Positions 27,501-61,500 of a DNA stretch of 64,000 bases are shown here, piece after piece. The position numbers and the translations under genes were made by a program. Origin of the DNA: Liolophura sinensis (Eukaryota > Mollusca > Polyplacophora > Chitonida > Chitonidae); contig NC_088302.1 in the NCBI RefSeq assembly GCF_032854445.1, positions 17,231,338 to 17,295,337 on the forward strand, read 5' to 3'. Every line of letters starts with the position of its first letter. Position 1 is the stretch's first letter. The notes beneath the pieces were generated by a model. That model was given only the letters and a program-made list of their open reading frames with translations. It ran no database searches and was not told where the DNA came from.

Positions 27501-30500
27501 ATATTTACAATTATGCTGTTTTCCATGTATAGAGTTGATTCCTTCCTAACTTCGTAAACACGACTGTTTCAGTCGCTGGCAGATAATGGCTTATGTTCAC
27601 TTGGGGCTAAATCTATCTGTGAGGCTCTACGTACAAATCGAAGCGTCCGGAAACTGAACTTGGCAGGTCAGTGCTGGAAAAATAAAAATATGCTATTTAT
27701 ACAATATGTAACGTAAGCAGAGTTAATCGCTAAATTTGTGTGTTTCGTTTCTTAAGAAGGTTTTATATTCGTTTCTGCTGGAACATAGTACAACCGATCA
27801 TCGAAAGGAATTGATAACGAAGCAAGAACTGTACATTAAAGGAATGAAATCGAACGAAAAGTTTTAGTGCAGTAACATCAGCTTTTTAATACTAATTACA
27901 AGTCATTATTGAATATTTGAATTCACTTTGTCATTTCAGGGAATGGTTTTAAAGAGAGAGATGCCGTTCACTTCCGGGAACTGCTTGAAGTAAGTGAACG
28001 ATATAAAAATGTGCACGAAATAAAATTCAATTAATCCAAGTTTTGGTATTAAGGCCGATTGAAAGATTAGTGTCTCCCGCCACAAGGTTTAATGAACAGT
28101 TTCAACCAGTCATACCTACTCAGTGGCTAGAGGACAGCAAATGGAGGGTTCAGATTGATTTTCGTCACTCGTGAGCCATACTGTGTAATCCTGTCGGCCT
28201 TTTCACATCAACACTAACTTTAGAAACCGGGAAAAACATATTGTCTCATAACAACACAGAGGCAGAGGACATGTAAGCTACTGAATTTGTATCATTTTCA
28301 AAAGAGAGATTTAGAAGTGGGTGGATCCGTGAAAAGCGCCAGTTAGCACACTTGCGCTGAGGCTTCTCTTGTTGATTACCATGGAAACCGAATGAGGACA
28401 TCTCGCGCGCGAATGGTACCGTCATCGTCCCTTCGCCCCCGCGCTCCGTGGGTCGCAATTTGCGCCGTCCTCGTGCCGTGGGGCCGCCGAGACCGGAAGG
28501 GTGAGGGGACGAGGACGCTCACCATTCGCGTGCGATGCGTCCTTTCTCGTCACCTCGTGTCGCGGCCCGCGGGGCGAGATGTCCTCATCCAGCTTCCATA
28601 TACTACAGTATATTAAACATCACAGTATCGTTTGTGCACAGAATCTGCTAGTTTATTGTTGGAACTGAATTCCTCCAAGATGAATGAGACTACATTTGCG
28701 TTTTTTTTTTTTAGCTTTAAATGGAATGAAAATTTGATAACCTTTATTTAATCGTCCATAATCGTAAGTTATTGTCGTTTTCAATCTAACCATAAACCCG
28801 TGACGTCATATATATCTAGGCACAGGTCTATCATAATGGCAGAAAACAAACCGATTACAAGAATCCCCTTGTAGACACAAACAATATACAGAGGCCTAAG
28901 CATTCTTTTATTTTAATTTTTTTTTAGATAATGTTCTTTTCCTATCCTACAAATCATGTGTCATTAACAGGATTACCTTGAGTTAGTTTTAAACGCCATT
29001 TTGATCGTACCAGAAATTCATCACGATTAACCGTGACTTTTTGAAACAGAAAGAAGTAGTTTCTGAAAAATGAAAGGTTGATATGTATTATAAAATAAAG
29101 ATTGGTATTTCTCTACTAAATGTCTCCTTTCATTTCACCACAGGAGAATAACGTTCTAATAGAGCTGAACATCAGTCATAACGAGTTCCGAGAAGTAGGC
29201 GGAGAAACACTGGCGGAAGGACTGTGTAAGTTAAAATGTGAAAATATGACAGAAACGCTGCGGAAGGAGAAGTTAAAGCATGAAATTAGAATACAAATAC
29301 TACCGGAAAAATTATGTAAGTTACGGTGGAAAAGTGGAAGAGAGCCGCTGGTGGAAGGATTATGGAAGTCAAAGTAATAAAAGTGGGAGGGAGACACTGA
29401 TTATGTAAGTTAAAGTTCTAAAGATTGAAGAGAATCGCTGACGAAGGGATTATGTGATTTAAAGTGTAAACGTAAGGTGTAAAAGTAGAAGAGAGACGCT
29501 TAAGGAAGGAGTATGTAATTTAAAGTGTACGAGTCGGAGAGAGACGTAAAAGTGGGAGGATTATGTAAGTTAAAGTGTAAAAGTAGGGGAGAGAGCCGCT
29601 GCTGAGGGATTATGTAAGTTAAAGTTTAAAAGTGGAGGAGAGACACTGTTGTAGGATTATGTAAGCTAATGTGTAAAAGTAAGAAAGAGGCTCTTTGCGG
29701 AAGAACACCATCGGAAGGAGAAACGTAGTTCAGGTATGAAATAGGAGAGGGACTCTGGTGGTAGCTAAAAGTTACCCTTAGAGCAACAAACACGGAACAT
29801 TTCTTTTTGGTTAGTATTTCACGCCGTGCTTAAGAGTTTTGCACTTATACTTTAGAGGTGAGGTGCTTGGGTGGATGAAACTTTCCTTCCCTGACCAGAC
29901 ACCAAAAACCTTGTCACAATGTTTAGTTTTCGGTAATGGAAGTTGAAATTTTGACACATTTGTCTTAAGGTAGCATTGATGAGGTGATCAAAATGTTAAT
30001 TTACAGGATTCAAAAATAATCTCTAAAATCATATTTCAAATTTTTAACTTAAGTCACAAACCGGCTTTTTGGAATCGGCCCCTGATGCATGTAAACCTCT
30101 TAGCGTCATACTGTGACGAAGCAATCGTAACTCGTGCCTAGCGCAAAGTCCATAACAACACATAAAAGTATTAGTTTTTCCTGAATGACCCCTTTGGGGC
30201 CTCCGTGGCCAAGGGGTTTAGCAATGACCCAGGAGCCTTTCACCAATGCGATCGCTGTGAATTTACCTCCAGCTTATTCTGGCCTCATCTTTAACCATAC
30301 GTGGGAAGGTCTTACAGCAACCTGTGGATGGTAGTTCATCGGGCTCTGCCCGGTTTCCTGCCACCATAATGCTGACCGGCATCGTGTAAGCGAAAACTCT
30401 TGAGTACAGCATAAAACACTAATCAAATAAATCAAATAAATGACTGACGCGTATTGCTTTTCCGGTGACAGGTTACAACGACAGCTTACAAAGCCTGAAC

Positions 30501-33500
30501 CTTAGCTGGAATCACTTACGACTGAAAGGGGCCATCGCAATTGGGAATAGCTTACAGTAGAGATATGCGACCATCATGATATGATTAATTTTCCTTAAAA
30601 ATAAAAAAATTGATTATGAAATTTCCGTCAAACAAAAATTACTGGAATACGAGAGCTGCTTTAGTGAAGTGGATGTCTTAAATTTTTAAATTATGAAACC
30701 TTACTGAAAGTCAGTTTCTCTTTGGTACGTTTTACTAAGAGGAGACTGTATTCTAATTTTTGTAGTTATTTATTTATTTGATTGGTGTTTTACGCCGTAC
30801 TCAAGAATATTTCACTTATACGACGGCGGCCAGAATTATGGTGGGTGGAAACCGGGCACAGCCCGGGGGAAACCCACGACCATCCGCAGGTTGCTGGAAG
30901 ACCTTAATTTTTTGTAGTTAAGGTTAAGTGTGATCACCTTTTTGTGACAATTCCATTCTTCAGGAAAACAACGGTCTAGAAAATCTCAATCTGGCATGGA
31001 ACGGTTTCCACATTGAAGGCTCCACAGCCTTGGGACATTCCCTGTGTTGTAATAAAACCCTGAAGGAGCTCGATTTGACGTGTAATCGGATTTATGAGTA
31101 CTGTTTACCTCCCCTTGTAGACGCCTTGGAGAAAAACAACACCTTGGAGGTTTTAAGGGTGAGACATAAGTGTACTAGATACTGTGTCACAGCATACTTG
31201 ACATGCTTGATTGAAATTCTTTTTGAAGCAGCTTGTGCGAATCAGTTCATTTTGACGTTTGGCGGTATATGTAAGCTTCAGAGTTGTATTTGTCTCAATT
31301 TGTGTTCCATACTGAATACGCTCAGCTCAAAACGTGATATTCTTTTACCTGTTAACCATCTGAATTTACTACGTTGTTATTATTGTTTCACAGCTGGGGT
31401 ACAACTCTCTGGGAATGGACGGGTCTATGTCTATTATACAAGTTATAGAGTCCGGTTCCTCTATTATAAACGACCTTGACCTCGGTGTAAGTAAATCAAC
31501 TTATATTCTTTATTACTTTTGGTGTCTTCATCTGATCTTTGAGGTGCATGACACTTTCCCGAAAGCGACAGCTTCCACCATAACGTCTGGTTTGAATTTG
31601 CTTTACAGTTGCTTTTTACAGTTTTAACTTCGTGGGAGCACTGACTGGCTCAGTTGTATAAAGCATCTTTCTCACCGGAGCTTATCGACCATTGACCAGT
31701 GAAATCTCAGGCTCGAATCCACCCCTGGCGGTTATTTACTCCACCCATAAATCTTGTTGTCGTTTATATATGTGAAACTTCTAATTAGCATAACTCCATG
31801 TACCTATACACGATATGTCGTATGCCTTATAGCAATAATTGTTCTTAGGTTTAACGTTTAATTAGTTTTATCTTCTCTGAGGAAACCATTACATTACTTT
31901 TTTTACGGCATCCTGAAAGAGAAACGTGCATTTTTTGTACAGTCCGTACATAGAATTAATCACTTGTAAGCTAAGTTTATTGTAACTGTCACGGTAACAT
32001 ATTTCTTCAGCATACGTAACCATAGTGGTTACAGTTAACTTAGCCCTGAATCGCCTTGTGGGAAAAATTCAGCCTGTTCCCGTCACGTGACAGTAAATTA
32101 CAACAGAAGGATTTTCATTCACCAGATGCAGTGTGTCTCGACGGAGTTCGTGGACTCGGAGAAGAGGATAGCCATTCGCAGACCGTTCAGAACCACCCAC
32201 GGGGTTGTGCTTAGCCCCACAGCCACGTATGACGGAGAGAATCAGAGAGATTCCCGCTTGTTTGAGGGGGACAATCCCATGTTGGTACTCATGGAGTTCA
32301 TGAGGCTCCAAAACCTGAGACTGGTAGATCTGTTCTCGACTTTGGACAAAAATAGCGACCATCAAATCACCCACGACGAGATTAGAGCAAAACTTCAGGT
32401 AAAACTAGAATGCATCCCAAAAGGGGCAAGCACCGTTATAGCTATACAAGTTCCCGCACTACAGCCAAAGGGGCAATACTCTGCATTTTTCTCTATTATC
32501 AATTAATGGGGAAGAATCGTTTGAAACAAATCCTGTATCCGGGTTTTGATGGGGATGACCCACCAAAATTTTAATGCATTAACCCTAAGCCTAAGGATAG
32601 CATGTGCACAAAATTTTATCCAAATTGCAGCAAAACTGTTTCTGTAAAGTTTCTGAGAGAGAGAAATAGGCAATTTTGTATTTACGTCGGTTTATTATCT
32701 ACTGATGAAAACTGTTCTCCATACAGGAGCTCAGTTATGTGGAAATCCTCAGAAAAACCGTTACTGCAGTGAAATAACATTAAGTAAAGTGTGAAACAAG
32801 TATAGATAACATATCTGTTTTATTAATTTATTGAGCCAGGGTAATCCAGGTGTCTAATGTAGCAATACTCTGAAGAACCTTGCGATATTTCCATGTCATT
32901 GTTTGTTAAATGTGATGAAAACGCAGCACTTTGAGTAATTCAAGCCAAGAGAGTTGCTACTGTCTAAACATTTACATTAACGTTGAGAATAAAACTCTGA
33001 CTGTGGTAAATCAACAAAATGCTTGATTTCTGCGTTTACTTATGGGTATTTGCCAACTACCTGTAGTGTTTTTCTATTGCGACATTTGGTTTAACAGCGA
33101 TGTAACCAAGCAAGTAAATAAGAAATCTCTGATCTTGTTTTCCCACAGTCGACCAGTGTACCGCTGTCCGATACGGCCATCGAACGGTTGATAGTTAGGC
33201 TTGATACAGACAATTCGGGAACAATAGATTTTGGGTAAGTTGTGTACCCGCAAATGCATCACACGTGGGAAGAATCGTTGTAAGATGCTCAAGGTCCAAG
33301 GTTCGGACGCTCCAATTTGTTCCATCCTATGGCGTTAAACAACAATTAAAGAAATAAAATAAAATAAATAAATAAAATAAATAAATATATAAACCAATAT
33401 GAAATATGTAAATGGGCCGTGTGGAAATTCCTTTATGTATGTTAATGGAAGAGATAGGAATGATTGCCAGTGCACAAGTATCGAAATTTTCCTTTATATA

Positions 33501-34118: not shown

Positions 34119-34299
34119 CAAGACGAGAAAAAAAAAACTGTTCTAACAGAATCACCCCGGTGCAACAACAACATGCCATAATTTTATATCCAATCGGTCC
34201 ATATCATACATGTATGCAGGTCTCAGGTGGCAAAGAAAATAGAAAAATTCACTGGCTCAGGATGTAGCGCACATAATTAGGTTAAGATTTTCCAACGTT

Positions 34300-34680
34300 T
34301 TCAGTCGTGGGTTTCCCCTAGGCCCTGCTGTTATGGACTGTGTCTCGTGTTGTTACGGGTAGTGTCGCGTTACGTTACGGGTTCATCTCGTCGCGCTATG
34401 GATTGTGTCTCGTGTTGTTATCGATTGCGTTACGTGACGTTATGAGTTGTGTCTCGTGACGGTATGGGTTGTGTCTCGTGACGGTAATGGTTGTACGTCG
34501 TGTTGTTATCGGTTTTCTCATACAGCTAAAGGTTGCGTTTGCCACCCTTTTGAGATTTGTCTCCTTACGTTGTTTTGTGTCTCGTGACGTTATTGGTTGT
34601 GTCTCGTGACGATATGTGTTGTCTCGTGCCGCTATTGGTTGTGTCTCGCTCCATCAAGGATTGTGTTTGAATGGACGTGC
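34300..34680. repeat. About 20-22 bp minisatellite downstream of gene B
   Basis: Irregular tandem copies of 'gttgtgtctcgtgacgttat' with variants 'gtgtctcgtgttgttacggg' over some 350 bp, starting about 180 bp after the gene B stop codon. Confidence 0.75.
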
Positions 34681-35765: not shown

Positions 35766-35769
35766 AAAA

Positions 35770-37129: not shown

Positions 37130-40100
37130 GGATTTTATAAATTATGTACACCCTGGCATTTTTTCCATATGTGAACTGAGTGCATGATTTGAACGTATAG
37201 AATTGGGTGCACGCTTCTAACATGTACACCAATGCATATTTGTCTATTTTTGAAACTAAGTGCGTGATTTAAATAAGTAGAATTGGGCAAAAGCCTCCAA
37301 CATGTACACCCATGCATGTTTGTCTATTTTAAACTGAGTGCGTGATTTCAATGAGCAGAATTGGGTACATACTTCTAACATGTACACCCATGCATGTTTG
37401 TTTATTTTAAACTGAGATCATGATTTCAATGAGCAGAATTGGGTGCATGCTCCTAACATGTACACCCATGCATGTTTGTCTATTTTAAACTGAGTGCGTG
37501 ATTTCAATAAGTGGAATTTGGTACATGCTCCTAACATGTACACCCATGCATGTTTGTCATTTTAAACTGAGTGCGTGATTTTAATGAGCAGAATTGGGTA
37601 CATGCTCCTAACATGTACACCCATGCATGTTTGTCTATTTTAAACTGAGTACGTGATTTCAATAAGTGAAATTGTGTACATGCTCCTAACATGTACACCC
37701 ATGCATGTTTGTCATTTTAAACTGAGTGCGCGATTTCAATGAGCAGAATTGGGCACACGCTTCTAACATGTACACCCATGCATGTTTGTCTATTTTTAAC
37801 TGAGTGCACGATTTCAATGAGCAGAATTGTGTACATGCTCCTAACATGTACACCCATGCATGTTTGTCTATTTTTAACTGAGTGTGTGATTTCAATGAGT
37901 GGAATTTGGTACATACTTCTAACATGTACACCCATGCATGTTTGTCTATTTTAGGCTGAGTGCGTGGTTTCAATGAGCAGAATTGGGTGCATGCTCCTAA
38001 CATGTACACCCATGCATGTTTATCTATTTTAAACTGAGTACGTGATTTCAATAAGTGAAATTGGGTACATGCTCCTAACATGTACACCCATGCATGTTTG
38101 TCATTTTAAACTGAGTGCGCGATTTCAATGAGCAGAATTGTGTACATGCTCCTAACATGTACACCCATGCATGTCTGTCTATTTTTAACTGAGTGCGTGA
38201 TTTCAATGAGCAGAATTGGGTACATACTTCTAACATGTACACCCATGCATGTTTGTTTATTTTAAACTGAGATCATGATTTCAATGAGCAGAATTGGGTA
38301 CATGCTCCTAACATGTACACCCATGCATGTTTGTCTATTTTAAACTGAGTGCGTGATTTCAATAAGTGGAATTTGGTACATGCTCCTAACATGTACACCC
38401 ATGCATGTTTGTCATTTTAAACTGAGTGCGTGATTTTAATGAGCAGAATTGGGTACATGCTCCTAACATGTACACCCATGCATGTTTGTCTATTTTAAAC
38501 TGAGTACGTGATTTCAATAAGTGAAATTGGGTACATGCTCCTAACATGTACACCCATGCATGTTTGTCATTTTAAACTGAGTGCGCGATTTCAATGAGCA
38601 GAATTGGGCACACGCTTCTAACATGTACACCCATGCATGTTTGTCTATTTTTAACTGAGTGCACGATTTCAATGAGCAGAATTGTGTACATGCTCCTAAC
38701 ATGTACACCCATGCATGTTTGTCTATTTTTAACTGAGTGCGTGATTTCAATGAGTGGAATTTGGTACATACTTCTAACATGTACACCCATGCATGTTTGT
38801 CTATTTTAGGCTGAGTGCGTGGTTTCAATGAGCAGAATTGGGTGCATGCTCCTAACATGTACACCCATGCATGTTTATCTATTTTAAACTGAGTACGTGA
38901 TTTCAATAAGTGAAATTGGGTACATGCTCCTAACATGTACACCCATGCATGTTTGTCATTTTAAACTGAGTGCGCGATTTCAATGAGCAGAATTGTGTAC
39001 ATGCTCCTAACATGTACACCCATGCATGTCTGTCTATTTTTAACTGAGTGCGTGATTTCAATGAGTGGAATTTGGTACATACTTCTAACATGTACACCCA
39101 TGCATGTTTGTCTATTTTAGGCTGAGTGCGCAATTTCAATGAGCAGAATTGGGTCCATGCTCCTAACATGTACACCCATGCATGTTTGTCTATTTTAAAC
39201 TGAGTACGTGATTTCAATGAGTGAAATTGGGTACATGCTCCTAACATGTACACCCATGCATGTTTGTCTATTTTAGGCTGAGTGCGCAATTTCAATGAGC
39301 AGAATTGGGTGCATGCTCCTAACATGTACACCCATGCATGTTTGTCTGTTTTAAACTGAGTACGTGATTTCAATGAGCAGAATTGGGTACATGCTCCTAA
39401 CATGTACACCCATGCATGTTTGTCTATTTTAAACTGAGTGCGCGATTTCAATGAGCAGAACTGTGTACATGCTCCTAACATGTACACCCATGCATGTCTG
39501 TCTATTTTTAACTGAGTGCGTGATTTCAATGAGTGGAATTTGGTACATACTTCTAACATGTACACCCATGCATGTTTGTCTATTTTAGGCTGAGTGCGCA
39601 ATTTCAATGAGCAGAATTGGGTGCATGCTCCTAACATGTACACCCATGCATGTTTGTCTATTTTAAACTGAGTACGTGATTTCAATAAGTGAAATTGGGT
39701 ACATGCTCCTAACATGTACACCCATGCATGTTTGTCTATTTTAGGCTGAGTGCGCAATTTCAATGAGCAGAATTGGGTGCATGCTCCTAACATGTACACC
39801 CATGCATGTTTGTCTATTTTAAACTGAGTACGTGATTTCAATGAGCAGAATTGGGTACATGCTCCTAACATGTACACCCATGCATGTTTGTCTATTTTAA
39901 ACTGAGTGCGCAATTTCAATGAGCAGAACTGTGTACATGCTCCTAACATGTACACCCATGCATGTTTGTCTATTTTTAACTGAGTGCGTGATTTCAATGA
40001 GTGGAATTTGGTACATACTTCTAACATGTACACCCATGCATGTTTGTCTATTTTAGGCTGAGTGCGCAATTTCAATGAGCAGAATTGGGTACATGCTCCT

Positions 40101-41720
40101 AATATGTACATTCATGCATGTTTGTCTATTTTAAACTGAGTGCGTGATTTCAATGAGTGGAATTGGGTACATACTTCTAACATGTACACCCATGCATGTT
40201 TGTCTATTTTAAACTGAGTGCGTGGTTTCAATGAGCAGAATTGGGAACATACTTCTAACATGTACACCCATGCATGTCTGTCCATTTTAAACTGAGTGCG
40301 TGATTTCAATGAACAGAATTGTGTACATGCTCCTAACATGTACACCCATGCATGTGTGTCTGTTTTAAACTGAGATCATGATTTCAATGAGCACAATTGG
40401 GTACATACTTCTAACATGTACACCCATGCATGTTTGTCTATTTCTACACTGAGTGCGTGATTTCAATGAGCAGAATTGGGTACATGCTCCTAACATGTAC
40501 ACCCGTGCATGTTTGTCTATTTTCAGCTGAGTGCGTGATTTCAATGAGCAGAATTGTGTATATGCTCCTAACATGTACACCTATGCATGTTTGTCTATTT
40601 TAAACTGAGTGCGCGATTTCAATGAGTGGAATTGGGTACATACTTCTAACATGTACACCCATGCATGTTTGTCTATTTTAAACTGAGTGCGCAATTTCAA
40701 TGAGCAGAATTGTGTACATGCTCCTAACATGTACACCCATGCATGTCTGTCTATTTTAAACTGAGTGCGTGATTTCAATGAGCACAATTTGGTACATGCT
40801 CCTAACATGTACACCCATGCATGTTTGTCTATTTTAAACTGAGTGCGCAATTTCAATGAGCAGAATTGGGTACATGCTCCTAACATGTACACCCATGCAT
40901 GTTTGTCTATTTTAAACTGAGTGCGTGATTTCAATGAGCAGAATTGTGTACATGCTCCTAACATGTACACCCATGCATGTTTGTCTGTTTTAAACTGATT
41001 GCGTGATTTCAATGAGCAGAGTTGGGTACATGCTTCTAACATGTACACCCATGCATGTTTGTCTGTTTTAAACTGATTGCGTGATTTCAATGAGCAGAAT
41101 TGGGAACATGTTCTTAACATGTACACCCATGCATGTCTGTCTGTTTTAAACTGAGTGCGTGATTTCAATGAGCAGAATTGGGAACATGCTTCTAACATGT
41201 ACACCCATGCATGTTTGTCTATTTTAAACTGAGTGCGTGATTTCAATGAGTGGAATTGGGTACATACTTCTAACATGTACACCCATTCGTGTGTGTCCAT
41301 TTTTAAACTGAGATCATGATTTCAATGAGCAGAATTGGGTACATACTTCTAACATGTACACCCATGCATGTTTGTCTATTTCTACACTGAGTGCGTGATT
41401 TCAATGAGCGGAATTGTGTACATACTTCTAACATGTACACCCATGCATGTTTGTCTGTTTTAAACTGAGTGCGTGATTTCAATGAGCAGAATTGGGTACA
41501 TGCTTCTAACATGTACACCCATGCATGTTTGTCTGTTTTAAACTGAGTGCGTGATTTCAATGAGCAGAATTGGGAACATGCTCCTAACATGTACACCCAT
41601 GCATGTTTGTCTATTTTAAACTGAGTGCGTGATTTCAATGAGTGGAATTGGGAACATGCTCCTAACATGTACACCTATGCATGTTTGTCTGTTTTCACAC
41701 TGAGATCATGATTTCAATAC
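37130..41720. repeat. 78-bp tandem array (about 4.6 kb, some 58-60 units) with higher-order duplication
   Basis: Each unit holds 'aacatgtacacccatgcatg' followed by a 'tattttaaactgag' and 'gatttcaatgagcagaattg' segment. The first block contains an AACATG...CATGTT inverted repeat that could form a small hairpin in every unit. Outer units at 37,130-37,320 are degenerate and central ones nearly identical. About 37,450-38,150 recurs 855 bp later (about 38,305-39,005) almost unchanged, an 11-unit higher-order repeat. Because 78 is divisible by three, long open frames arise on the minus strand (up to 393 codons, 26-residue periodicity); nothing else supports coding. Confidence 0.93.
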
Positions 41721-46900: not shown

Positions 46901-49900
46901 ATCCTTCGGTGAACTTTTATGAAAATCCACATTGAGATTTGGGCATCCTTTGTTAAATACGCAGAATGTATTGATTCATGGCTTACTTAATACTGACTTT
47001 TGCATTCATCCTAATCTGGAAGCCAAATGGCTTCCAAAGATACACCTGTACCTGTACATATAATAATCGTACGTACATTATATTTTTTCCGACCCAGGAA
47101 TCTTTCACCAATGCCGTCGCTGTTCAAGTTCAGCTCATGCTGGCTACTTGCGGGTGGTTGAGTGTTTCCCCCCCCCCCCCTACCCCACCATAATGTTGGC
47201 CGCCGTCGTATAAGTGAAATATTCATGGATATGGCGTAAAATACCGATCAAATAAATATATTATATTCCTGTAATTCTATTGTATGTTTTTTTCTTGGTC
47301 ATAGATTTATATGTATGGATTACGTTTTGTCTGAAATACAGATATGAATATATTAGCTGTTATTAGCCATGAATGTTTCTTACAACGATGAAGACAAGCT
47401 TTTCCTCATAAGACAGTGGACGTTGTCCAGGCCATTAAATTTGCATACATGTACTACATGTTGTCATTTTTGCCTCAGACTTTTATATTTATTTATTTGA
47501 TTGGTGCTTTACGCCGTACTCAAGAATATTTCACTTATACAACGGCGGCCAGCATTATGGTGGGGAAACCCACGACCATCCACCGAAGTTGCTGGCAGAC
47601 CTTCCCACTTACAGCCGGAGAGGAAGTCAGCATGAGCTGGACTTGAACTCACAGCGACGGCATTGGTGAGAGGCTACTGGGTCATTACGCTGCGCCAGCG
47701 CGCTAACCGACTGAGCCACGGAGGCCGCTCAGACTTTTATATTATGTTGTGACTACCTACGTTTGGTGCACGCACCAAATTTAGAATGAAAAAAAATTGC
47801 AACATAGAGAGAAAAACCAGAAGAGTGCCGACAATATGATAGTTGGCCCATGATCACAAGTAACCGGTGAATCTTGTCGGGTCAGTTAGGGTTTTATTTC
47901 CACTGTTCATGTCTTTACTTAAAAAGTAGCAACAAATCAGCGTTTTCAATTATTATTTAGAATTGAACAGTTATCGCAAACGCAGATAAATCTATTTCAG
48001 TTTTTCCTTTTGAATCAAATCAAATTGTGTACATAACTGATGTTTTTAGGAATGTAGGCATATAAAGGTAGTTAACTATCGCAAAGTAGGGGGAGTATAT
48101 GCAAATTTTTGGAAACTCTTGACAGTTCTAGGATTTAAATTTTTTCAATGTCTTGACGTGAATGGCGTTTATCTGCTTTGTATCTGAACTCTTCAATTAT
48201 ATCTGCTAAATCAACAACATTAAACACATCTCTTTTGCAGGGAATGGCTTTAGTGAACCAGACGCCTGCCACTTTAGAACACTTACTGCTTGTAAGTAAG
48301 TTATTATATCATAAACTTTAAATGTAAATTTCTGAAATGAATTGTTTCCCACGAAGAAACAAAACGGTGAAATTATTGATAAAATCTAAATAATGATCAG
48401 ATTACAGACTTGTATTCCCGACAGAAATTTGGTCTGTATATAAAACTAACCTGTGTTTGAAACAGCAGAATCAGAAGGGGAACAATGTGTATAAAATCTG
48501 GATGCCTATTTGGATTATAGGATGACACGTGGGTTACTGTATCACGACATGATCTATTTCAGAGTAATTCAACTATACGCCACCTCATCCTCAGCAATAA
48601 CAGCTTCAGAGAAAAAGGCGGCGAAATCTTCGGGGATATACTAGGTATGATTGCGCACAACAATTTGCTTTCCCAGCAATACATGTATGTTTGTAATCTC
48701 AGTAAGAGAATTGAGTGCATTTGGACTCATCAGAGTTGTTATAAGTCTCCACTATGATCTCTCCCACTACACTAATCCATCAATTGTCAGGTCAAAATAG
48801 TTTTAAAGTGTATCATAAAAACAGCCAAAGCCCGTTATATATCTACATTAGTCAGAGTCAGGAACAATAGCATGTGCTAAAAAGATGGTATACCTGGATG
48901 GTATACTCTGATTCACGTCTTAATACTGCATGACTGAAATGAGTGTACCAACGAATCAACGAAATCAACCAAAATAATACAAAAGGTTTAAAGGAGGAGA
49001 AAGCATAAAATTACACAGACTTAAGATGAAAGAGTGAGAAAAGTTATATGTAAATGGGGTCCTCAATATTTTTTTCAATTTTTCTTTAAGAGAAAGACAC
49101 TTGGGAATATTTTTTTGTATGGTGGGTATTTTTTCTCTTTTATCCTTCTAGCAAAAATAAAACAAAAAAATATTAAGGCCAAATTTGCAAATAAGATTTC
49201 ACAACCTTTCGTCTAATTTTGGCATTATTTTTAGGTTTTCGTCTCCTTTAACCTGGGCACTTATCACCAATTATGCACCATTTCGTTTTAATACCGTAGC
49301 CCGTGGCATGAAGTTGCTTTTAATTGATTCGAAATAGGAACAGGCACTGAATAATTATGATTATCTTTCCATTTTTGTGTTTATGCCGTAGCGTCCATTT
49401 ACCTGTAATAATACTGGTCTTCAACAGCTGTAACTCAGTGCATTGTATTTTGCTATTATGTAGCCAAGAACAAGACGCTGACAACCCTGAATCTCAGCTG
49501 GAACCATTTAAGACGACGAGGTGCGGTGGCTATAGGAAAAGGCCTAACTGTAGGTACTCCCAGCTGTATATGGATGTAGAACAAAATGTCTCCGTAGTGT
49601 TTTATTACATAATTTAGAACTTAATATTCCGACATGCATTTGAGTTGTAAGAGACAAAGACTCCAATAATGTAATACGTTTCAGAAGAGACCTGTTGCGG
49701 CGGAAGGCTGCCTCAGCATATTATACCAGAAAAATTTAATGCGAACATAGTACATAGTTCAGTTTCACTTTACATTCCGTCAACTGGTTGCGTCGAGAAA
49801 ACAATATGCAGAGAGAGTGGTGTGTTATAAAGAATAAACATTTACATTATCCACAAAATGCCTTTTGAAATACTTTTTGGAAGTTTATACTCCCTAAGCC

Positions 49901-52900
49901 GAATTCACGCTTTGGGATTTTTCGTATCAGTTCGTAGAATTTGACTTGGAATTCTACAAGTCGTACGAAGTAGAGTCTGCCCATATCGAGATCTACGCGT
50001 CAATGCGACAAATAGTACTGTGTGAACGCGGTTTTACCAATACTGGGCCTTCAAAATACCATCCAAACGTCGACATGTTGAAATGATATGGTGCAACGAC
50101 TATTAAACTGCTTCGGTGGCTTGATGGTTTGAGCGTTCGCGTCATAGTCGCGAAGCCTTGGATCAGACTCGGATCATGTCATACCAAAGAATTATTTGCT
50201 GCCTAACATGGCGCTCAGTGCTGGGAAGTTAGAGCAAGGGAACAGGATTGGGTGAGGTGTCGTGCCTGATATCTTCGGCATGATGTTTCTGTATAGCTGA
50301 ACATAGCGGGCATAAAACACAAGACAACGCAGTACATGTAGACTGATCTAATGATTCCTCGAAGCTAAATGACTGTTCATAACTACACAAAAACCAAAAC
50401 ATACATACATACAATTATGTTATTTTTGTAGAATAAAGCAACAGCAGCTACAAAACTTTTATGAATAGATTCAAACCACAATCATTATCATAAAAAAATA
50501 TGAATTTGAACGTAGAAGCAATCATGTATTTTCAGCGGTGAAGGAAAAGCAAAGATGATCAAATATTTTCTGTTCTCATTCCCAGAGCAATCATTGTGTC
50601 CGTTTTCTGAATGTGTCTTGGAACGGCTTCTACTTGGAAGGTTGTCGTGCTTTGTCAAGAGCTTTGGACAGGAACAAGACGCTGATGGAACTGAACCTAG
50701 AGGCAAACCGAATCAACAAAGAGTGTTTGGACGAACTACTGAAAGGACTGAAGCGAAACAAAACGCTCACCTCACTAAAGGTATATCGTACTACCTCTGA
50801 CATATAGCAGACTATATTTTTCTTAAGCCCCGGCATTTGCTATTATTTATTCGTTTGTTGATCTAGGTGTTTTTTATTCAGTTATTTGATTGGTGTTTAA
50901 GCCGTATGCAAGACTATTTTACTTATACGAGGGTTGCCAGCATTATGGTGAGAGGAAACGGGCAGAGCTGGGGTTTTTAACGCCGTACTCAAGAATGTTT
51001 GACTTAAATGGCAGGCGATCAGGTTTACGGATGTAGGAAAACAGGATTCCAAGTGTAAACCAACGCCCCTTCGGTAGTCATACATCATACATTTTGATCC
51101 GCACAGCGAGCTCGTTTGTGCCATTAATTGAAGACAAAACAATATTAGACGGAAATAGACCTGACTACTAGCGCGAAAAGAGAGATAACTCACTTTCGGG
51201 AAAAAGCTATAGCTGTGGACCTCTTTGTTACACTAAAAACACAATACCCTATTAGTTTAATAGAATCTTTGTGTTGAATTCATAGAATATGTATGTTTTA
51301 TTTAACAGAACAATCTGCGGCAATAGCAGAATACATCACTCAGACAACAGACTTTCTGTTAAAATTAACAGATTAATTTTTGGAATGTATATTTGGAAAA
51401 GGAGTTTTAAAAAGATTCCCATCATCGTTCATATAAATTAATGGCTGGAAATTGTGATGTTTTGAGATTATTGTATCTGATAGGCTACCTTCTGTTTCCT
51501 TCTCAGTTATCCGACAACCCGATAACGACAGAGGGCGCCATGGCTCTGCTGAAGAGCATTCAAGAAATCACAACAATGTCTCTCATCCGACTCGATCTGG
51601 GCGTAAGCTTAATTTGCTGGAGTTTTCGTAATGATTTTTTCTTCAATAATTAAGGTAAAATCATGTATACCACTAGCATTAAGTTAAACGCAGAAACTTT
51701 TTCTATTTATTTATTAACCACACTGGTTTGCCGTTCCTGTACTTCTGTTTCTTGAATCCCAAGGACACAGCGTATTGTCATAAATTTTTTTGTGTCATTT
51801 TAATTTTTTTCTCGGGAATATAGGAGCAGTGCGTTGATAGAGAGTTCATTGACGTGCTGATGCAGATCCAGTCGGAACGCCCTCTGGAGGTGAAGTACGG
51901 CGTTGTTCTGAGGGATGAGGCGCCCCAACAATGTAAGGAACAGGCCCTGGTCTCTGAAGACCCCATCCTTGTTCTCATGGAATTCATGAAACTTAAAAAC
52001 CTGCGCCTCATCGATCTCTTCCAGTCCTTGGACAAAGACGGTAGCCGGTCTCTGAGCAACCAGGAGCTTAAGGCAGGTTTACTGGTGAGTGTAATCTGGT
52101 TTAGTATAGTCATCTTTCGGGTAACCTGTAGCTTAGGAAAGTTTACTGGTGAGTGCAATCGGGTTCTAGTACCCAAGAGATTAAGGCAAGTTTTCTGGTG
52201 AATGCAATCGGGTTCTAGTACTCAAGAGATAAAGGCAAGTTTACTGGTGAGAGCAATCTGCTTGTAGTACCCAAGAGATAATGGCAAGTTTACTGGTGAA
52301 TGCAATCGGGTTCTAGTACCCAAGAGATTAAGGCAAGTTTTCTGGTGAGTGCAATCGGGTTCTAGAACCCAAGAGATAATGCCAAGTTTACTGGTGAGGG
52401 CAATCGGGTTCTAGTACCCAAGAGATTAAGGCAAGTTTACTGGTGAGCGCAATCGGGTTTGAGTAATCAGTGGCTTATGGCAGGTTTTACTGGTGAATGC
52501 AATCGAGGACAGGCTTATCGATGAGTGAAATCAGGTTTCGAGTAACTATGAACTTGAGGCAAACTTGGGACTTACATGAACAGTTAGAATAAAACCTTAA
52601 ATGAGCTAAGCTGACGAGGTGGTATTTCAACCGTTACGTATAGGTGCAAAAATAAACATGGTTTATTCTATTTTAATTACGGGTTGCTTGGTTGAAAGAA
52701 AGCCAACCCAAAGTTCTTGTGCAATATCAAGAAATTAATAAGTGAAAGGTGTGATCGTTTATCAATATAAAACGTTTGTATGTACTGTCAAATAATGAAA
52801 TTCTCACCGGGATAAACTGGCCGAAAGTTGTTAAACTGACGACATCATTCATTCGCTTATCGCCAGCTTGACGGTGTCACGTGATCAAATATTTTCACCT

Positions 52901-54163
52901 GATATGATATGCTTGCTTTCAGGATGAAGGAATGCCGTTGTCAGAGAAATCTCTCAACAAGCTACTATCACGGCTTGACAGGGACAAGAATGGTGAGATT
53001 GACTTTGGGTAGGTGTTTTCATACAACTCTATAATTTGCTCCGTCACTGTGAGTTCAAGTCCAGCTTATGTTGGCTTTCTTTCAGGCCGTACGTGGGAAG
53101 GTCTTGCAGCAACCTGTGCATAGTCGTGGGTTTCCCCCGGGCTCTGTCCGTCGTATAAATGAAATATTTTGGTATGGCGTAAAACACCGATCATCCGGTT
53201 GTTTTTTTCACATCCTGAACGTCTTTGAACATGGACTACTCACCTAACGTTGCGCCTGCGTGCAAGACGATACTAAAAAACACATAATCGATTGGTCAGT
53301 TTTGTATTCTGTTGGTTCTAACAATTGGTTTGATTTACAAATTGCTAGCTGTCTGTTCAGAATACCGATTAGTTTCGATTTAGCGCAAGACTAGTCTTCA
53401 AAACAGTATGAAACTTAAATCACCGAAGAACGAACAAAATATTTATAGCTATATACTTCACGGATTCATGCAATCCGAGAAGCATTCAACAGTTTCATTG
53501 ATGTCGGAAAGACGCAAGGAAGTTTTAGTTGCATTCTTGTATACATCTGCATGGGCCCAGTTTCACAAAGCGATGTACAACATTTTTCTTATCGTACATT
53601 TGTCGTACAATATTTTGTACGTCACTATTACTGTACCAATGTCCTATATGTGCGATTATCGTACATGTACGACATCTTTGTGAAGCTGATTGTTGCTTAA
53701 CGCCCTACTGAAGAATTTTCACAAAAACGACAGCGGTCAGTTTAATAAACTTAATCAGTAACCAGGTCATGTACCAAGCTAGTGTGCTGGTTGTTTCACT
53801 ACGAATTATCTGCTTAGAAAACCCAAATTTGAGTACAAACCATTTTTTGTTGTTTTTGTTGTTGTTTTTTTTTTGTTTAGGGAACTAATGTTTGGCCATA
53901 AGAATCACAGGCGGCGGATGAACACGCTGGTGGAGATTACGAAAGAGAAAGACGGGTCAAGCAGGGAGGGGGACGTGGCCAGGGTCAGAGCTCGGCTTGC
54001 CGATCTCATCCGGAAGAAAGACAGAGAGATCCTGAAGCGAGTCCAAGAGAGAAAACTCGTTAGTGCTTTTCCCGGAGATAGAAAGTATATTTTCGGCACC
54101 GGAGTACGGAAAATGGTGCGTCCGGCATCCACCGAGCCAACCATGGCCACACTTCCGGAGTAA
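43984..54163 (+). CDS. Gene C: LRR plus EF-hand protein, LRRC74-like (13 exons; two single-base frame breaks)
   Basis: Exons: 43984-44010 (tentative first exon, ATG to AAG/GTAAGA), 44367-44622, 45294-45488, 45931-46038, 46652-46745, 48241-48291, 48563-48644, 49464-49549, 50586-50780, 51507-51602, 51824-52084, 52923-53008, 53881-54163. Apart from two one-base excesses, lengths and phases match gene B exon for exon, and about 605 residues would be encoded. The head (about residues 10-95) is Arg-rich. LRRs include TTLNLSWNHLRRRG and FLNVSWNGFYLEG. EF-hand loops are DKDGSRSLSNQE and DRDKNGEIDFGE; the second is split by the phase-2 intron seen in all three paralogues. The tail is basic and ends at 54163. 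Exon 45294-45488 aligns to A and B in one frame up to VTPATYF and in another frame from MRNHVLG onward, with an AAAA run at 45404-45407 at the switch. Exon 48241-48291 is 51 rather than 50 bases. No nonsense substitution is seen, so assembly error and young pseudogene both remain possible. Confidence 0.8.
45010..45110. repeat. Short degenerate tandem repeat in gene C intron 2
   Basis: Repeated 'tcatc.tgtcatcgtttcgtg' motifs of about 17-18 bp over 100 bp. Confidence 0.5.
47090..47262 (+). mobile_element. SINE of the main family, head-truncated, with a C-run
   Basis: Starts at 'cccaggaatctttcaccaat'. It contains a run of 12 C near 47,168-47,180 and ends 'gtaaaataccgatcaaataa'. Confidence 0.75.
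47490..47727 (-). mobile_element. Same SINE family, nearly full length
   Basis: Reverse copy, from the 'tatttatttgattggtgctt' tail to 'ccgactgagccacggaggcc'. Target duplication ctcagacttttatatt at 47474-47489 and 47728-47743. It lies in gene C intron 5. Confidence 0.9.
48988..49251. mobile_element. MITE, TTAA-flanked (copy 2) in gene C intron 6-7 region
   Basis: TTAA at 48988-48991, then AGGAGGAGAAAGCATAAAAT. The right end reads GGTTTTCGTCTCCT, then TTAA at 49248-49251. It is related to the 21.3-kb copy but shorter, with the central segment missing. It lies between gene C exons 7 and 8. Confidence 0.75.
50105..50390 (+). mobile_element. Third SINE-like family (copy 2), in gene C intron 8
   Basis: A tRNA-like head 'cggtggcttgatggtttgag' precedes 'gttagagcaagggaacagga', 'atatcttcggcatgatg' and a diverged tail. 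It complements copy 1, whose head is missing. Confidence 0.6.
50870..50975 (-). mobile_element. SINE fragment of the main family in gene C intron 9
   Basis: 'ttatttgattggtgtttaag' to 'gaggaaacgggcagagc'. A second tail-like 'aacgccgtactcaagaatg' follows at 50,978. Confidence 0.65.
52085..52560 (+). repeat. 49-bp minisatellite copied from the gene C exon 11 / intron 11 junction
   Basis: The exon ends with CTTAAGGCAGGTTTACTG and then GTGAGT. The intron repeats 'AAGGCAAGTTTACTG' followed by GTGARN and an interspersed 'caatcgggttctagta'. Donor-like GT positions are 52149, 52198, 52247, 52296, 52345, 52394, 52443 and 52493, a strict 49-50 bp step after the first 64 bp. Several copies keep a good donor, such as GTGAGT at 52149 and 52345. 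Confidence 0.9.
53036..53195 (+). mobile_element. SINE of the main family, 5'-truncated, in gene C intron 12
   Basis: From 'gtcactgtgagttcaagtcc' to 'ggcgtaaaacaccgatca', starting about 30 bp after the exon 12 donor. Confidence 0.75.
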
Positions 54164-54387
54164 GCAGCCGTGAACGAAGTGTTAGACATCATTTAGCATA
54201 ATATGTAATGGCACTGAAACAACTGTGGATGTGACAAGCAGGTCTTTCGATCTGTTGTTCGGTCGTTTTGTCATCTGTTGACAATTTTAAAACAGGGGCT
54301 ATTGACTGAATGAGGAGACTGTGTGCAACACGACATGGGCTTTTTGCGAAATGCGCGAATCTGTGGTTGTTGTATTTAGCTCAAACG

Positions 54388-54635
54388 GAGGCCTCCGTGA
54401 CCAAGGTAGTTTGTGTGCCATGAACCTCCCAACAATGAGGTCGCTGAGAGTTCAAGTCCAGCTCTTGCTGTCTTCCTCTCCGGCTGCACGCGGGAAGGTC
54501 TGTCAGAAACCTGTTGATGGTCGTGGGTTTCCTCTGGGCTTTACCCCGTTTCCTCCCAAGATAATGCTGGTCACAGTGGTTCAAATGAGATATATTCTTG
54601 ACTACGGTGTAAAAAACAATCAAATAAAGAAATGA
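54388..54635 (+). mobile_element. SINE of the main family downstream of gene C
   Basis: 'aggcctccgtgaccaaggta' to 'gtaaaaaacaatcaaataaa', diverged but complete. Confidence 0.82.
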
Positions 54636-54639
54636 ATAT

Positions 54640-56535
54640 TTAGCCCACGTCGTTTGTTAAAAACTCCATGGGTGTGGTTGATTTCTCAGGAGTTCATTAT
54701 CGTAACAGACTATCAGATTTTTGTTACAACTACTTGTTAAAATTTGAAATCTTCAGAGACAGCATCTTTGCTAGCCAAGGGTATAGCATATACTAAATAT
54801 GAGATGATGCGGTGATAGTGATTCATGCCGGAATTCATGCTATACAACTGTATCGTAATACATGTATTTTGGTTTCAGCTAATGAACAATGACGTCATGA
54901 ATCAAAGAGCTACTTATCCTTAATTAGATTTCCACACACGTTACCAAAACATTCCGGGAAGCATTTTGATTATCTTTTGGCCATAGTGGTGTGGAATATA
55001 TGAACTTGGGAATTAAAGCAATTAAATATGTTAATTACCAGAATTGATCGATTGATACATATGCAATTTTAGAAATTCATTTTGGAATCATTGGTGTTTT
55101 TATGCAATATAATAAATAATATTTAACATTTACAACAGCCACTGGACTTATTTATTTATTTATTTATTTCTTTATTTATTTATGTGATTATTGTTTAAAG
55201 CTATTCTCAAGGGGTTTTCGCTTATACAATGGATACAAGTTTTGGAGAAAATTGCGGATATATGGATAAGAAAACTTGACAGATCTGAGAAGAAACCATT
55301 GTGGTATATTTATTTACTTAGCTATTTATTTGATTTTCGTTTTACGTCGTACTCAAGAATATTTCGTTTATACGACGGCGGCCAACATTATGGTGGTAGG
55401 AAATCGGGCAGGATTATGGTATTAAATGATATATGGTATTAAGCCAAAGAGACACCAACAGGTGACCAATCCTTTCATTGGTTTTACATATGCGCGAGGG
55501 TAGCATGGACTCGGCCTGCCACAAGAAGGCATGGACTCGACCTGCCACAAAAAGACATATTATATGTATGCACGTAATGCGCCCTCGTCGTCACACGACC
55601 CCACGCATATATCCATCCATACCTACATATACGATAGTAGTTATTCCAATTTTGTACGCCATACACACACTCCAGATATAAAATTGGAATAGTGCAAACT
55701 ATGTCACATGGATGTCAGACTGACAAATCTGCACGCCTACTGGACCTACCATAATTCCATGGATGTCCAATTCGTGCCAGACAAACCAGACGAAAGCGCG
55801 TTTCCGTCAGCTACGGTTTCCGGTATGTGAGCGAAAATCGGTCATCGTACTGCCCTGTCTCTATGCTGTACACGCTTTTCCAGGATCTAATACAACTCCG
55901 GTAGCCTATCCTTCAAAATATTTGTTGTAAAACTGTTTTACTTATGTGATCTCCAGGGTGGTTAATTAAGATGTGTATACGTAGGAGCAATTATAGATTA
56001 AGTCATACAATGGCTTCTGGAAAAGCACACAGTGGATAGGCGGAATGAATGGACTGGACAATGCTTTGCCGGGCTTTTCGATACACAATATCGACAGGTC
56101 TTACTGATATGACGTCACCCGATCAGAGTACAGCGGTCGACAAGATAGACAAAGGGTCCAATTTTAATGTTTTTTTTTTTAAATGCAATTTTCAGACTAA
56201 CATAGCATAAATATTATGTTTAGGAAATATTTAAAAAGTAAAGTGGTTAGAGATCTTTAATCCCATTCAACATGCACAAGCAATAGTGTGGGTGTGGTGG
56301 CCTAGTATTGGCCTAGTATTTCCTATATGTGAATAGCGGGAGGTTATTGATTGTGTAAGCCGCTTACCGTACGGGTACATCGTGTTTACGCCCCTGTACA
56401 TTTACGGCCTCGACTGGAAGGTGTGGGTGGGGTGTGTGCGGAGAGATGACAACTCATATACCCTCCTGTCAGTTCGTGTGCTTGTCGTAATGGATGAGGG
56501 CTGAACATGACCCCTGTGTCCGCAGCTGACAACGT
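54640..56535. other. No gene recognised (gene C to opsin spacer)
   Basis: It contains (ttta)n near 55,150 and a fragment related to the third SINE family near 55,500-55,680 ('catggactcggcctgccaca' and a second copy 31 bp later). Confidence 0.4.
55310..55412 (-). mobile_element. SINE fragment of the main family
   Basis: 'ttatttgattttcgttttac' to 'attatggtggtaggaaatcg'; a (ttta)n run precedes it at 55,147-55,185. Confidence 0.7.
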
Positions 56536-56539
56536 ATCT

Positions 56540-56945
56540 TGTTCGAAGCGAACAACAAACAAACTGTTGAAGGTAGGTTACATGCTGAACTATCTTTGAA
56601 GGCTTAAAAACCAAAGTATTATTTCCATAGAAATAATCTTCTTCATGGGCAATTTTGAAACAAACAGTGAACTAACTGTTCAAGGTACTTTTATGTCACA
56701 TGATGAACTACCTTTTGTGGCTTAAAAACCAAAGCATTATTTCCATTGAAATAATTATCCGTATACAGAATTTCAACATAGACAGTAACCAAACTGTTAA
56801 AGGTACTTGTATGTTACAAAGCATTATTTCCATAGAACTAATTATCCGAAAAGCCAAAAACAAACAGAAAACAAAACTGTTAATGATATATTATTTTGCT
56901 GAACTATCATTCTCGGCTTAAGAAACATAGCATTATTTTCATGGC
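56540..56945. repeat. About 118-bp tandem repeat, four units, upstream of the opsin
   Basis: Units begin near 'aaactgttgaaggta' (56,545) and restart at about 56,677, 56,788 and 56,877. Shared blocks are 'gcttaaaaaccaaagcatt' and 'atttccatagaaataat'. Unit 3 has an internal deletion and unit 4 is diverged. The first unit starts at a sequence resembling a splice donor (GAAG/GTAGGT). Confidence 0.7.
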
Positions 56946-56949
56946 ATCT

Positions 56950-58515
56950 TTTGTTAGAAGAAGAGAGAAAAGGTTCGTTTTGATTTTGTTCTGTATTCTT
57001 GAATAATAACAGCCTAGACCTAACATCTGTTTCATTCTTCCCAGCTTAGACTCAAACGTCTTTACTACAGCTGATACCAACACAGACTATTTCAAACAAC
57101 GTCAAAGAGAAGTCATAAAACCTTCTGAATCTAGGTTTCCACTTTACGTCATCATAGTCCCTCAGTGCATTTTAACATGAGTAGGTTATGCAATGATGGA
57201 ACAATCCACTAAATATGACTCAAACTACCACACTTACCATGACAATCCTCTGTTGTACATATTTTCGGAAGTAAAAGTCGTCGTTTGTGGATAAGTTTTA
57301 TTATTTTTATAAATCAAAGAATGGTAAATGACTGTAAATCAGGCACATGTAGTTTTTTTTGACCGACAGTTAAGTAATAGATCAACAGAGACGACATATT
57401 TGCAACAAAGTTAGAATCCTGTCTGCACCATTTTCCAAAGGAACCACCAACTAGTTAAAGAGTGATATAAACTCTCGTTCTAACTTAAATAAATATGTTG
57501 TTGGGCAGGTCACCCATACAGAATATACAATAATTCTGTTTATGCTCCTGATAAATCTTTACCATTTTAACCATTATAATGTGTTTCATACAATCGGGGT
57601 TAGGCCTTACATGTGTAGTTCCGGAACTTAGCAATGGTAAGCCGGTCAAGGGCAGGATATATTGGTATACACACGGTAAATGTCAGGTAAATGTTGTCGT
57701 TATCTGGCGATTGTGATGAGCAATAATTCTGATATCAATATCAGCTATAGGAGCAAAACCGAAAATAGTCAGTAATCCGATTATAAAGGGCTGGAATACA
57801 TCGATTGATGTTTCGTAACCGTTCGTTTTACAAGTGGTACTAGCAGGCTTAAAGGAATCGCACAGTAATCATTAATATGGATATGTCCTGCTTATTTTGG
57901 TCACAACATGGGTGGCGCCCATTTCCCGCCACGTTCATGCTATCACGTTTTTTGGGTGTAATCATTTCTGTCAGCAGGCGCTATCTCACCAGTCCACCTA
58001 CTATATAGCTGCTGTTATTATAATGGACTGTATCAATCCATTCTGTTCAATATATCAGATAAACTCCATAGTTGATGAGTTATCATTATCACCCAGTATT
58101 CGCAAAATTTAAGATGGGACTGGGAAAATCTGGGCTACGTTAAATCACCTATCAGTTCATGACATCGTATCAATTTATGTGTTTACCAAATCTGACGCAT
58201 CCTCAACACTTTTTTAAAATTAATAATGTAACGTTTTTATAAGCTGAACTTCTGGTTTAAGCTGTTTCCCATTTGCACTGTTAGTTGGTTAGCCTTCTAG
58301 CCGATGTTGCTGTTGCTATTGCTCGAAATGGTGTTTTTCTTGTTCTTGATAGAAAGGTGCATTTTGAAAATGCGCATGCGTCCCGGCTTGTAACAGCGCA
58401 AGGTCATATTTTTGTTTTGCTCCACTGATTACCGATATGAATCATTCATCACAACAGCACGGTAGTTTTCTCATGTAGTGCTATGTTCCAGAATCAAAGC
58501 TCTAAGGACCTTGCT
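56950..58515. other. Region upstream of the opsin coding start
   Basis: No coding exon is recognised. Opsin promoter and 5' UTR should lie here or further upstream; no TATA box or known motif could be assigned with confidence. Confidence 0.35.
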
Positions 58516-58519
58516 CAAA

Positions 58520-61500
58520 ATGATGGAGAATTCCTCGATCTACGCGAATTTGTCGGAATACCAGATGAGCTATACTGCTTATTTAGGGACAGGAATATAT
58601 GTGGCATTTGTAGGTAAGTGCAAGAATAAGGGGTTTTTTTTAGATTCACAAAAGCAGGACTTTAAAGGGGACGGACATGATTGTAAGCTAATAAGCCAGA
58701 GAATCTTTTAATATTAGGTTTTAAGTTTGTGAATATGCTGTCAATATTATAGAGAGGTTTGACAAAATGAACAGAAGGATATGATTATACGATAGCCGCA
58801 ATCGTTTGCATTCACACATGAAAAAACTCCTGATTCGCAGTTTCCGACGTAATTCAAATACGTATGTATGCTTTTATGAAATTCATTTTTTTGCTCATTT
58901 TTCAGTCAGAAATTTCACTCAGTTTTATTACTAAGGACAGAAACTGTGCTTTGACAATAGTTTCCTTACAAATCATAGCAGGGTAACAAAACTCACAGGA
59001 TACTGGTGTCCGTCATGACGTGCATGGCGACTGATATCCGTTACGCACACACATGAAACATCTGTGTACAGTGGCTATACGTCAGACTGCACAAAGTGAT
59101 GACGTATAATAGCGTATACGTGACGGTACGAAACTCATCTGTTGTGTAGGCTATCATCCCACTGATATAATGCGGGTTTATTCATTTAAATCATTTATGT
59201 TATTGGTGTTTTACGTCGCACTCAAGAATTTGTCACTGAATATACGACGCTGATCAGGAAGCTATAATGTACATGTACTCAAAGTAAATCATCGGCCTTC
59301 GCCACGTGCCTGATTGAAAGCCGCAGTCTAACCAAATGAATTCGAGTTTACAAAATTGTCCAAGAACGACTGACTGCGGCGAAACTCAGGTTTCAGCCCC
59401 TTGAGCTATGCGTAGACCTACATGAAATTCATATTCACCTATCCGCACATTTGCCTATTTTATCATGAGAAAATGCAAAGATTCCCGATGACGAAATTAT
59501 CAACAAATAAACAAGCGTGTCGTTTATCAGAAAATGCATCAGTCAAGTTACCCATTTGGGAATGACCTTCCGATCTTTACCACATTGTCCTGGAACTACT
59601 ATATTCCACAGGAATCTTGTCCACCTTTGGGAACCTTATCGTGATTGTGGTGATATGCGGGAAACGCAAAGAAATCAACTTCCAGAAGAAGCAGCACATT
59701 CCTCTTCTTCTGAACCTGGCCGTCGCTGACATCGGCGTGTCCTTGTTTGGTTACCCTTACACCAGTCTGTCCGGGATGGCCGGAAGATGGCTGTTCACGG
59801 ACGAACTCTGCACGATGGCCGCCTTTTTCTGTTTCCTTCTCTCATTGGTCAGTCTGAGCAGCTTAGTAGTCGTTAGCATCATCCGTTACATCGTCATCTG
59901 TAAACCCGGCCTGAGTGAGTATTATACACGTCGCCGTGATACACGTGTTCATGTATAGGTTAAATGAGATGATGGCGAGGATTTTTGTTTTGAATCAGTC
60001 AGCTTTTGTAGTTTCACTGGTTCTCCTTGTTACCGGTACATTTACAGAACTAACTCATAGGGGACACTTTTAAAGCATTTCGAACCAGGGGCTCGTTTTG
60101 TACAATATGTGTCATGTGAATATACAACTTACATGATTAGGAGCTCTGCAAACTGTCGTCATGGTAACGGTCGTGATCTCTTCATAAGTTGGTTTCATTC
60201 TGTATAAAAACACATCTTTCTTTGCTGTTACGTTGCAGTGTCTGTGATCTACTTTTGCACAAGTACACAGAATCTGTGACGTATTACAATAAAAGGAAAG
60301 CGTACCCTGCCTCTCCCGACTTATTTTAGTAATCAATGTTCCCCCTTACGATAAGTGTGCTTTGTAAGACGGGCCATATTGCACACTGGCTTTCCATCAC
60401 ATTTTCTTTCCAAGAGCCTCGGTTGACTTCCCGGATGATCAACTACACTGTACTGCTGACCTGGCTGTACGGGGTGGCCTGGGCGGTGATCCCGTTGTTC
60501 GGACCTGCTGCCTACACGTACGAAATGTTTGGAACGTCCTGCAGTATTAACTGGACGAGAGGGCTCCTACAGGACACCATCTTTATCATCTGTATCGATG
60601 TCTTCTGCTTTCTGATTCCTCTAGCTATCATTGCCACGTGCTATGTTCAGGTATATATTCTTGATATACGTCTTCTGTTCCAAATTTGTGAGTCTATCAT
60701 AGCCACTTGCCATGCTCAGGTTTTTTTGTTGATATATGTCTTTTGCATTTTAATTCCTCTAGCTATCATCGCTACGTTTTACGTTCAGGTTTTTCTTCTT
60801 GATATATGTTCTAATTCATCTAGCTATCATCGCTACTTTCTATGTTCAGGTATATCTTTTTTATATATGCCCTAATTCATCTAACGTTCATCGCCACTTT
60901 CTATATTCGGGTATATTCTTGATATATGCTCTAATTCATCTAGCTATCATCACTACTTTCTATATTCAGGTATTTCTTCTTGATATATGCCCTAATTCAT
61001 CTAGCTATCATCGCTACTTTCTATATTCAGGTATTTCTTCTTGATATATGCCTTAATTCATCTGGCTATCATGTCCTACTTTCTATATTCGGGTATATAT
61101 TCTTGATGTATGCTCTAATTCATCTAGCTATCATCACTACTTTCTATATTCAGGTATTTCTTCTTGATATATGCCCTAATTCATCTAGCTATCATCACTA
61201 CTTTCTATATTCAGGTATTTCTTCTTGATATATGCCCTAATTCATCTAGCTATCATCGCTACTTTCTATATTCAGGTGTTTCTTCTTGATATATGCCTTA
61301 ATTCATCTGGCTATCATGTCCTACTTTCTATATTCGGGTATATATTCTTGATATATGCCCTACTTCATCTGGCTATCATCGCTACTTGCTGTATATCTTC
61401 TACTAGAATAACACGTACATATTTTTACTTTTCCGAAAAGTAAAATGAGATAGAAATATCTGTCCTAAACAATTACAGTATGTGATCTTTTATACTCTTT

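Follow-up and report, generated by a model that had tools for sequence, protein, structure and literature searches.

Minisatellite-like arrays spanning exon-intron boundaries in the chiton Liolophura sinensis are commoner at donors than at acceptors

The stretch of Liolophura sinensis DNA analyzed here (64,000 nucleotides, hereafter the window) contains an opsin gene and a cluster of three related EF-hand/LRR genes, at 4871-9311 on the minus strand and at 29141-32413 and 48560-52084 on the plus strand, with an additional relative immediately upstream of the window. The opsin gene, gene B and gene C each have an intron that begins with a tandem array of units spanning the exon-intron junction, as had been proposed from reading the sequence and as was confirmed by TRF and by junction-anchored alignments (Table 1). 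The assembly, built from HiFi reads according to the available text of the genome report, was first published as that of Liolophura japonica, in 632 scaffolds (PMC11068029), and the species name was amended to L. sinensis in a published correction (PMC12441733). Our genome-wide searches covered 609,464,459 bases in 632 contigs, the array search passing over simple repeats and very common words, and the whole analysis concerns the DNA sequence of one assembly of one animal.

Table 1. Coordinates of the three junction-spanning arrays and their surroundings (mirage, array of the amphioxus type discussed in the text; a slash marks a splice junction)
Feature	Position	Strand	Basis
Opsin exon end (TM5, ...CYVQ)	60598..60650	+	alignments, TRF row 60598-60809, Pfam, reading frame
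Opsin intron	60651..61635	+	first donor 60651, acceptor end 61635
Opsin mirage array	60694..61394	+	11 junction-spanning copies and 1 partial; TRF, alignments
Gene C exon end (...ELKAGLL)	52050..52084	+	alignments, reading frame; EF-hand_6 below cut-off
Gene C intron with array	52085..52922	+	acceptor cag/GATGAAGG
Gene C mirage array	52123..52544	+	8 copies of about 49 bp and a weaker ninth; TRF, alignments
Gene B LRR exon end (...GGACTGT), array template	29191..29225	+	alignments; LRR_6 below cut-off
Gene B degenerate mirage array	29252..29688	+	about 7 copies of about 50 bp; TRF, alignments

The opsin gene was recognized by a Pfam 7tm_1 match on 60414-60650 that lies above its cut-off (E 5.8e-9). 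Its exon ends in ...TATGTTCAG/GTATAT, with the junction between 60650 and 60651, and at least the last 45 bases of the exon end form the template copy of the array. By junction-anchored alignment, 11 further junction-spanning copies were found at 60694-61355, in agreement with the number predicted, and these score 53-73 against a maximum of 29 over 200 shuffles. The predicted period of about 61 bp applies after the first two periods, which are 69 bp. The reading frame is kept across the first donor into the next exon (CYVQ/IILRYRMI). In three opsin paralogs (L150-L152) we found no intron clearly at the corresponding place.

The gene C exon, in which an EF-hand_6 match falls under the Pfam cut-off (E 0.00022), ends in ...GGTTTACTG/GTGAGT at 52084/52085, and approximately its last 26-35 bases are reproduced in the array. 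The eight copies of 49 bp that had been predicted were all recovered, and score 30-60 against a shuffle maximum of 25; CTG/GTGA is kept in all eight, and the reading frame continues across the first donor (ELKAGLL/DEGMPLSEK). In five paralogs of gene C a donor lies at the corresponding position or a few bases away from it, and none of the five was found to have an array at that donor, which indicates that the intron is old and the array younger. This bears on Rogers-type intron gain (Hellsten 2011; potato RdRp case), which resembles the present structures in that tandem duplication involves splice signals but which, as described in the available part of the account, creates a new intron (PMC4974935), whereas gene C has an old intron that gained copies of its boundary. 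For gene C, such a gain was rejected because the intron is present in five paralogs without the donor array. More generally, the arrays could mark introns born by tandem duplication of an exonic AGGT segment, and many units do read AG/GT, so that each could provide both a GT and an AG. Given the age of the gene C intron, and given that the opsin and gene C arrays stop 241 and 378 bases short of their acceptors, we consider an origin of this kind highly improbable. Human introns in the 2007 work of Zhuo are likewise said to be linked to tandem arrays of direct repeats, and the two boundaries of those introns, 5′ and 3′, reportedly match; in contrast, neither the opsin nor the gene C array extends to the acceptor.

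The gene B array is the weakest and most decayed of the three. The exon, whose LRR_6 match is under the Pfam cut-off (E 0.0031), ends in ...GGACTGT/GTAAGT at 29225/29226. Seven copies of about 50 bp had been predicted, and seven degenerate matches scoring 25-38 were indeed found, but three of them (28, 27 and 25) are not above the best shuffle (28). TRF detects the array solely at 29473-29689 (50 bp, 4.5 copies, 72% matches), and the first donor of gene B scores below its copies. In gene A, a GTAAGT-bearing 18-bp repeat of two copies (9149-9185) does not extend into the exon.

The view that the three arrays are unrelated in sequence was upheld, as neither the opsin array, nor the gene C array, nor the first part of the gene B array had a match beyond its own locus in the genome-wide search (simple repeats and very common words skipped). 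Introners are single dispersed sequence families that carry splice signals, and the arrays resemble them in being recurrent structures with such signals; an introner element was nevertheless rejected, since each window array matches its own locus only, very common words being skipped. The window also holds repeats of other kinds. Between the regions of genes B and C lies a 78-bp satellite (37144-41718) of 58.7 copies with 89% matches; its unit length is a multiple of three, and on the minus strand it has an open frame of up to 393 codons. An 18-bp unit (TTACCATAAAACCAGATC) forms two separate arrays, at 22034-22372 and 24853-25115, with higher-order periods of 36 or 54.

Beyond the window, we analyzed a sample of conserved exons of five protein families (CCT, myosin, kinesin, ABC-membrane and SNF2). 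The first set consisted of 20 contiguous CCT and myosin regions, picked by hit density and containing 92 exon hits. The second consisted of 146 exons, taken with 330 bases on either side, that were selected randomly (seed 42) among 222 hits of the kinesin, ABC-membrane and SNF2 families, these 222 being a hand-copied subset of 239; the 17 omitted were mostly multi-stop or very long single-exon hits, and their omission by hand could have removed array-bearing exons. Junctions were called by a simple generic donor or acceptor score beside the exon hit, which gave donors for 198 of the 238 exons and acceptors for 227. In the first set, alignment identified an extra copy of the junction in the adjoining intron at 7 of 78 donors and 4 of 87 acceptors; the respective figures for the second set are 10 of 120 and 4 of 140, and those for both sets together 17/198 donors versus 8/227 acceptors. 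When at least two extra copies were required, 17 donors and 3 acceptors were retained. With TRF, junction-crossing arrays were detected at 16 of 198 donors and 4 of 227 acceptors, in line with the anticipated preponderance of donors over 3′ junctions. Another 15 arrays start at other points within the 330 bases of intron sequence next to the donor, one of the 15 in fact starting 7 bases within the exon. Junction-spanning arrays are thus found genome-wide and are commoner at donors than at acceptors. The original picture of arrays at donors was right as to the commoner site but incomplete, as acceptors carry arrays too, less often. An assembly artefact or chance is almost certainly not the explanation: divergence between copies of an array runs from several per cent to more than 20%, the assembly is HiFi-based (PMC11068029, available text), and in the first set, where the controls were run, false positives numbered 0 in 495 shuffles and 0 in 330 cross-locus tests.

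Manual correction changed the TRF counts to 17 of 197 donors (95% interval 5.1-13.5%) and 5 of 226 acceptors (0.7-5.1%). On the donor side, L083 and L084 were merged as the same locus, L011:9189 was added on the basis of alignment, its TRF array beginning 59 bases into the intron, and L110:1062 was added with 7 exon bases in the array. On the acceptor side, L065 (14-bp, T-rich) and L084 were removed, while L004:348 (1 exon base), L033:336 (7 exon bases) and L021, whose acceptor had been called 32 bases too far downstream, were added. The acceptor alignments at L010:1394, L020:673, L033, L071 and L087 rest on a single extra copy, and that at L010:1394 resembles a duplicated exon. At L010:296-400 and 1392-1487, two similar myosin exons lie about 1 kb apart and resemble alternative exons. 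Arrays on the acceptor side include L012 and L017. The array at L012:985-2806, with a 32-bp unit (TRF 42.9 copies) and its end 9 bases into a myosin exon, is a large acceptor-side mirage. At the kinesin locus L083/L084, neighbouring exon copies lie in an array of 67-73 bp units, and the unit seems to contain both acceptor-like and donor sequence.

The p-value for the excess of donors over acceptors ranges from 0.0004 to 0.037 depending on the counting rule (TRF raw, 0.0024; alignment raw, 0.037; corrected counts, 0.0037), and is 0.058 when the randomly drawn set is taken alone with raw alignment counts. The original prediction also implied an excess at donors over other intron positions, and this was observed in the exon sample. 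Counting one start per locus, by TRF start, and taking the interior density from the first 330 intron bases, we found 14 array starts in the last 80 exon bases versus 3.4-4.0 expected from the adjoining intron, a density 3.5 to 4.1-fold that of the intron (p 8e-5 or less). The corresponding figures are 14 versus 2.6-3.0 for a 60-base exon-end zone and 16 versus 4.2-5.0 for a 100-base zone. Start positions were used here instead of the alignment-based interior control, in which the 28 of 240 positions include donor-starting arrays. At the other edge of the exon, 25 arrays are confined to the intron. Nine of these end no more than 60 bases from the acceptor and the other 16 in the preceding 270 bases, and because of this distribution it is possible that the effect exists at both exon edges and is trimmed by selection at acceptors. 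The nine arrays in question, from among the sampled loci L001-L149, have their ends near the pyrimidine tract, 15-59 bases before the acceptor, and stay outside the exon.

These distributions may be indicative of a local DNA process seeded at donors or exon ends, such as polymerase pausing at 5′ splice sites, R-loops, or fork stalling and template switching. Such a process would account for the greater density of array starts in the last 80 exon bases and for the numerical excess of donors over acceptors by either method, and seeding at both exon edges would fit the intronic arrays that end in the last 60 bases before the acceptor. However, the exon portion of the unit ranges from 7 to 90 or more bases across arrays, and hence no fixed breakpoint is apparent, and a single genome cannot separate mutation from survival. 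Slippage and microhomology repair had also been put forward as seeding mechanisms; in old arrays the unit has no defined edges at which microhomology could be sought. We therefore treat seeding as a possibility that deserves consideration but falls short of being probable.

Although we had initially known of no named class to which such elements would belong, their structure is that of the amphioxus "mirages". In the available portions of the reports, these are described as minisatellite-like duplications of exon-intron boundaries, in the Adh (Adh3) and globin genes (PMC3087553) and also in PGBD5 and troponin C (PMC3902484), and as leaving regular splicing undisturbed (PMC3087553, PMC3902484). 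Mirages are minisatellite-like, with units of about 10-160 bp and with array lengths that are unstable between haplotypes; the chiton arrays have basic periods of 31-109 bp and 2.3 to 18 TRF copies. As in amphioxus, the unit spans the exon-intron boundary of a protein-coding gene, the arrays of different genes are unrelated in sequence (the three window arrays), and either exon boundary may carry an array. On these tested features, the chiton arrays are mirages. They differ from the amphioxus ones in their host, a mollusc, and in that their frequency (about 8% of sampled donors) and donor bias have been measured, whereas the amphioxus accounts, in the parts available, describe single genes. 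Among the literature matches listed, which covered few subscription papers, there was no report of mirages outside amphioxus. An abalone intron is described as containing a 27-bp minisatellite, with no mention of a junction span in the available text (PMC6905558), and a word search of the accessible part of a chiton comparative genomics paper yielded nothing on such arrays (PMC12005716). Within the literature searched, then, the occurrence of mirages in a mollusc, their frequency and their donor bias are new.

We analyzed the quality of the repeated donors in 19 arrays, namely the three in the window and 16 of the 17 sampled (L110 was left out), giving copies without GT a donor score of -5. 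The score of the first donor exceeded the average for its copies in 13 of the 19 arrays, matched it in 5 and fell below it in 1 (Wilcoxon p 0.0019), although the donor caller selects high-scoring donors near the exon hit and could favour the first. Selection for several donors, giving robustness or efficiency of splicing, had been offered as one explanation of the arrays. In its favour, GT is retained in most copies, and in 13 of 19 arrays the donor core shows slightly higher conservation than the remainder of the unit; but identity among copies (0.946 for the core, 0.933 for the remainder) does not differ significantly (p 0.33), the first donor is on average stronger than those downstream, and there is no frame bias of the second donor in the 19 arrays, its distance being a multiple of three in 7. 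Since the first donor is usually the best one, the core is not significantly better conserved and frame bias is absent, the data argue against selection for multiple donors, which we judge improbable, and in favour of near-neutral duplication. Judging from the reading frames, later donors might still be used in some cases, as in 4 of 19 arrays, opsin included, splicing from the second donor would extend the exon in frame without a stop.

The arrays are thus probably mirage-type minisatellites, near-neutral tandem duplications that are tolerated through use of the first donor. A short tandem duplication, of the size of the basic periods given above, would by chance span a donor, with the result that each repeat comprises the end of the exon, the donor and the first intron bases, and more copies would be added via ordinary minisatellite turnover (slippage, unequal exchange). 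Splicing would presumably continue from the first, exon-attached donor, so that the extra intronic copies would be removed with the intron, and a donor duplication, being close to neutral, would persist. An acceptor-spanning duplication, by comparison, would set a competing AG upstream of the real one; it may be harmful more often, and fewer would survive. While one would expect equal densities of array starts at exon ends and in introns under pure tolerance, an excess at exon ends was seen, and a bias of seeding or retention must be added to the near-neutral scheme. In a stronger and more speculative form, which we think rather unlikely, exon ends, and above all 5′ splice sites, would be hot spots of tandem duplication in the chiton lineage through a transcription- or splicing-coupled DNA process that has given approximately one in twelve introns a donor-spanning array, and the same process would have produced the amphioxus mirages.

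The presence of mirages at about 8% of sampled donors implies that introns in a phylum distant from that of amphioxus can commonly grow in this way. The chiton genome thereby provides many natural cases of competing, near-identical donors in which the rules of donor choice can be tested. Furthermore, the excess at exon ends makes a duplication process linked to splice sites directly testable with long reads and several haplotypes.
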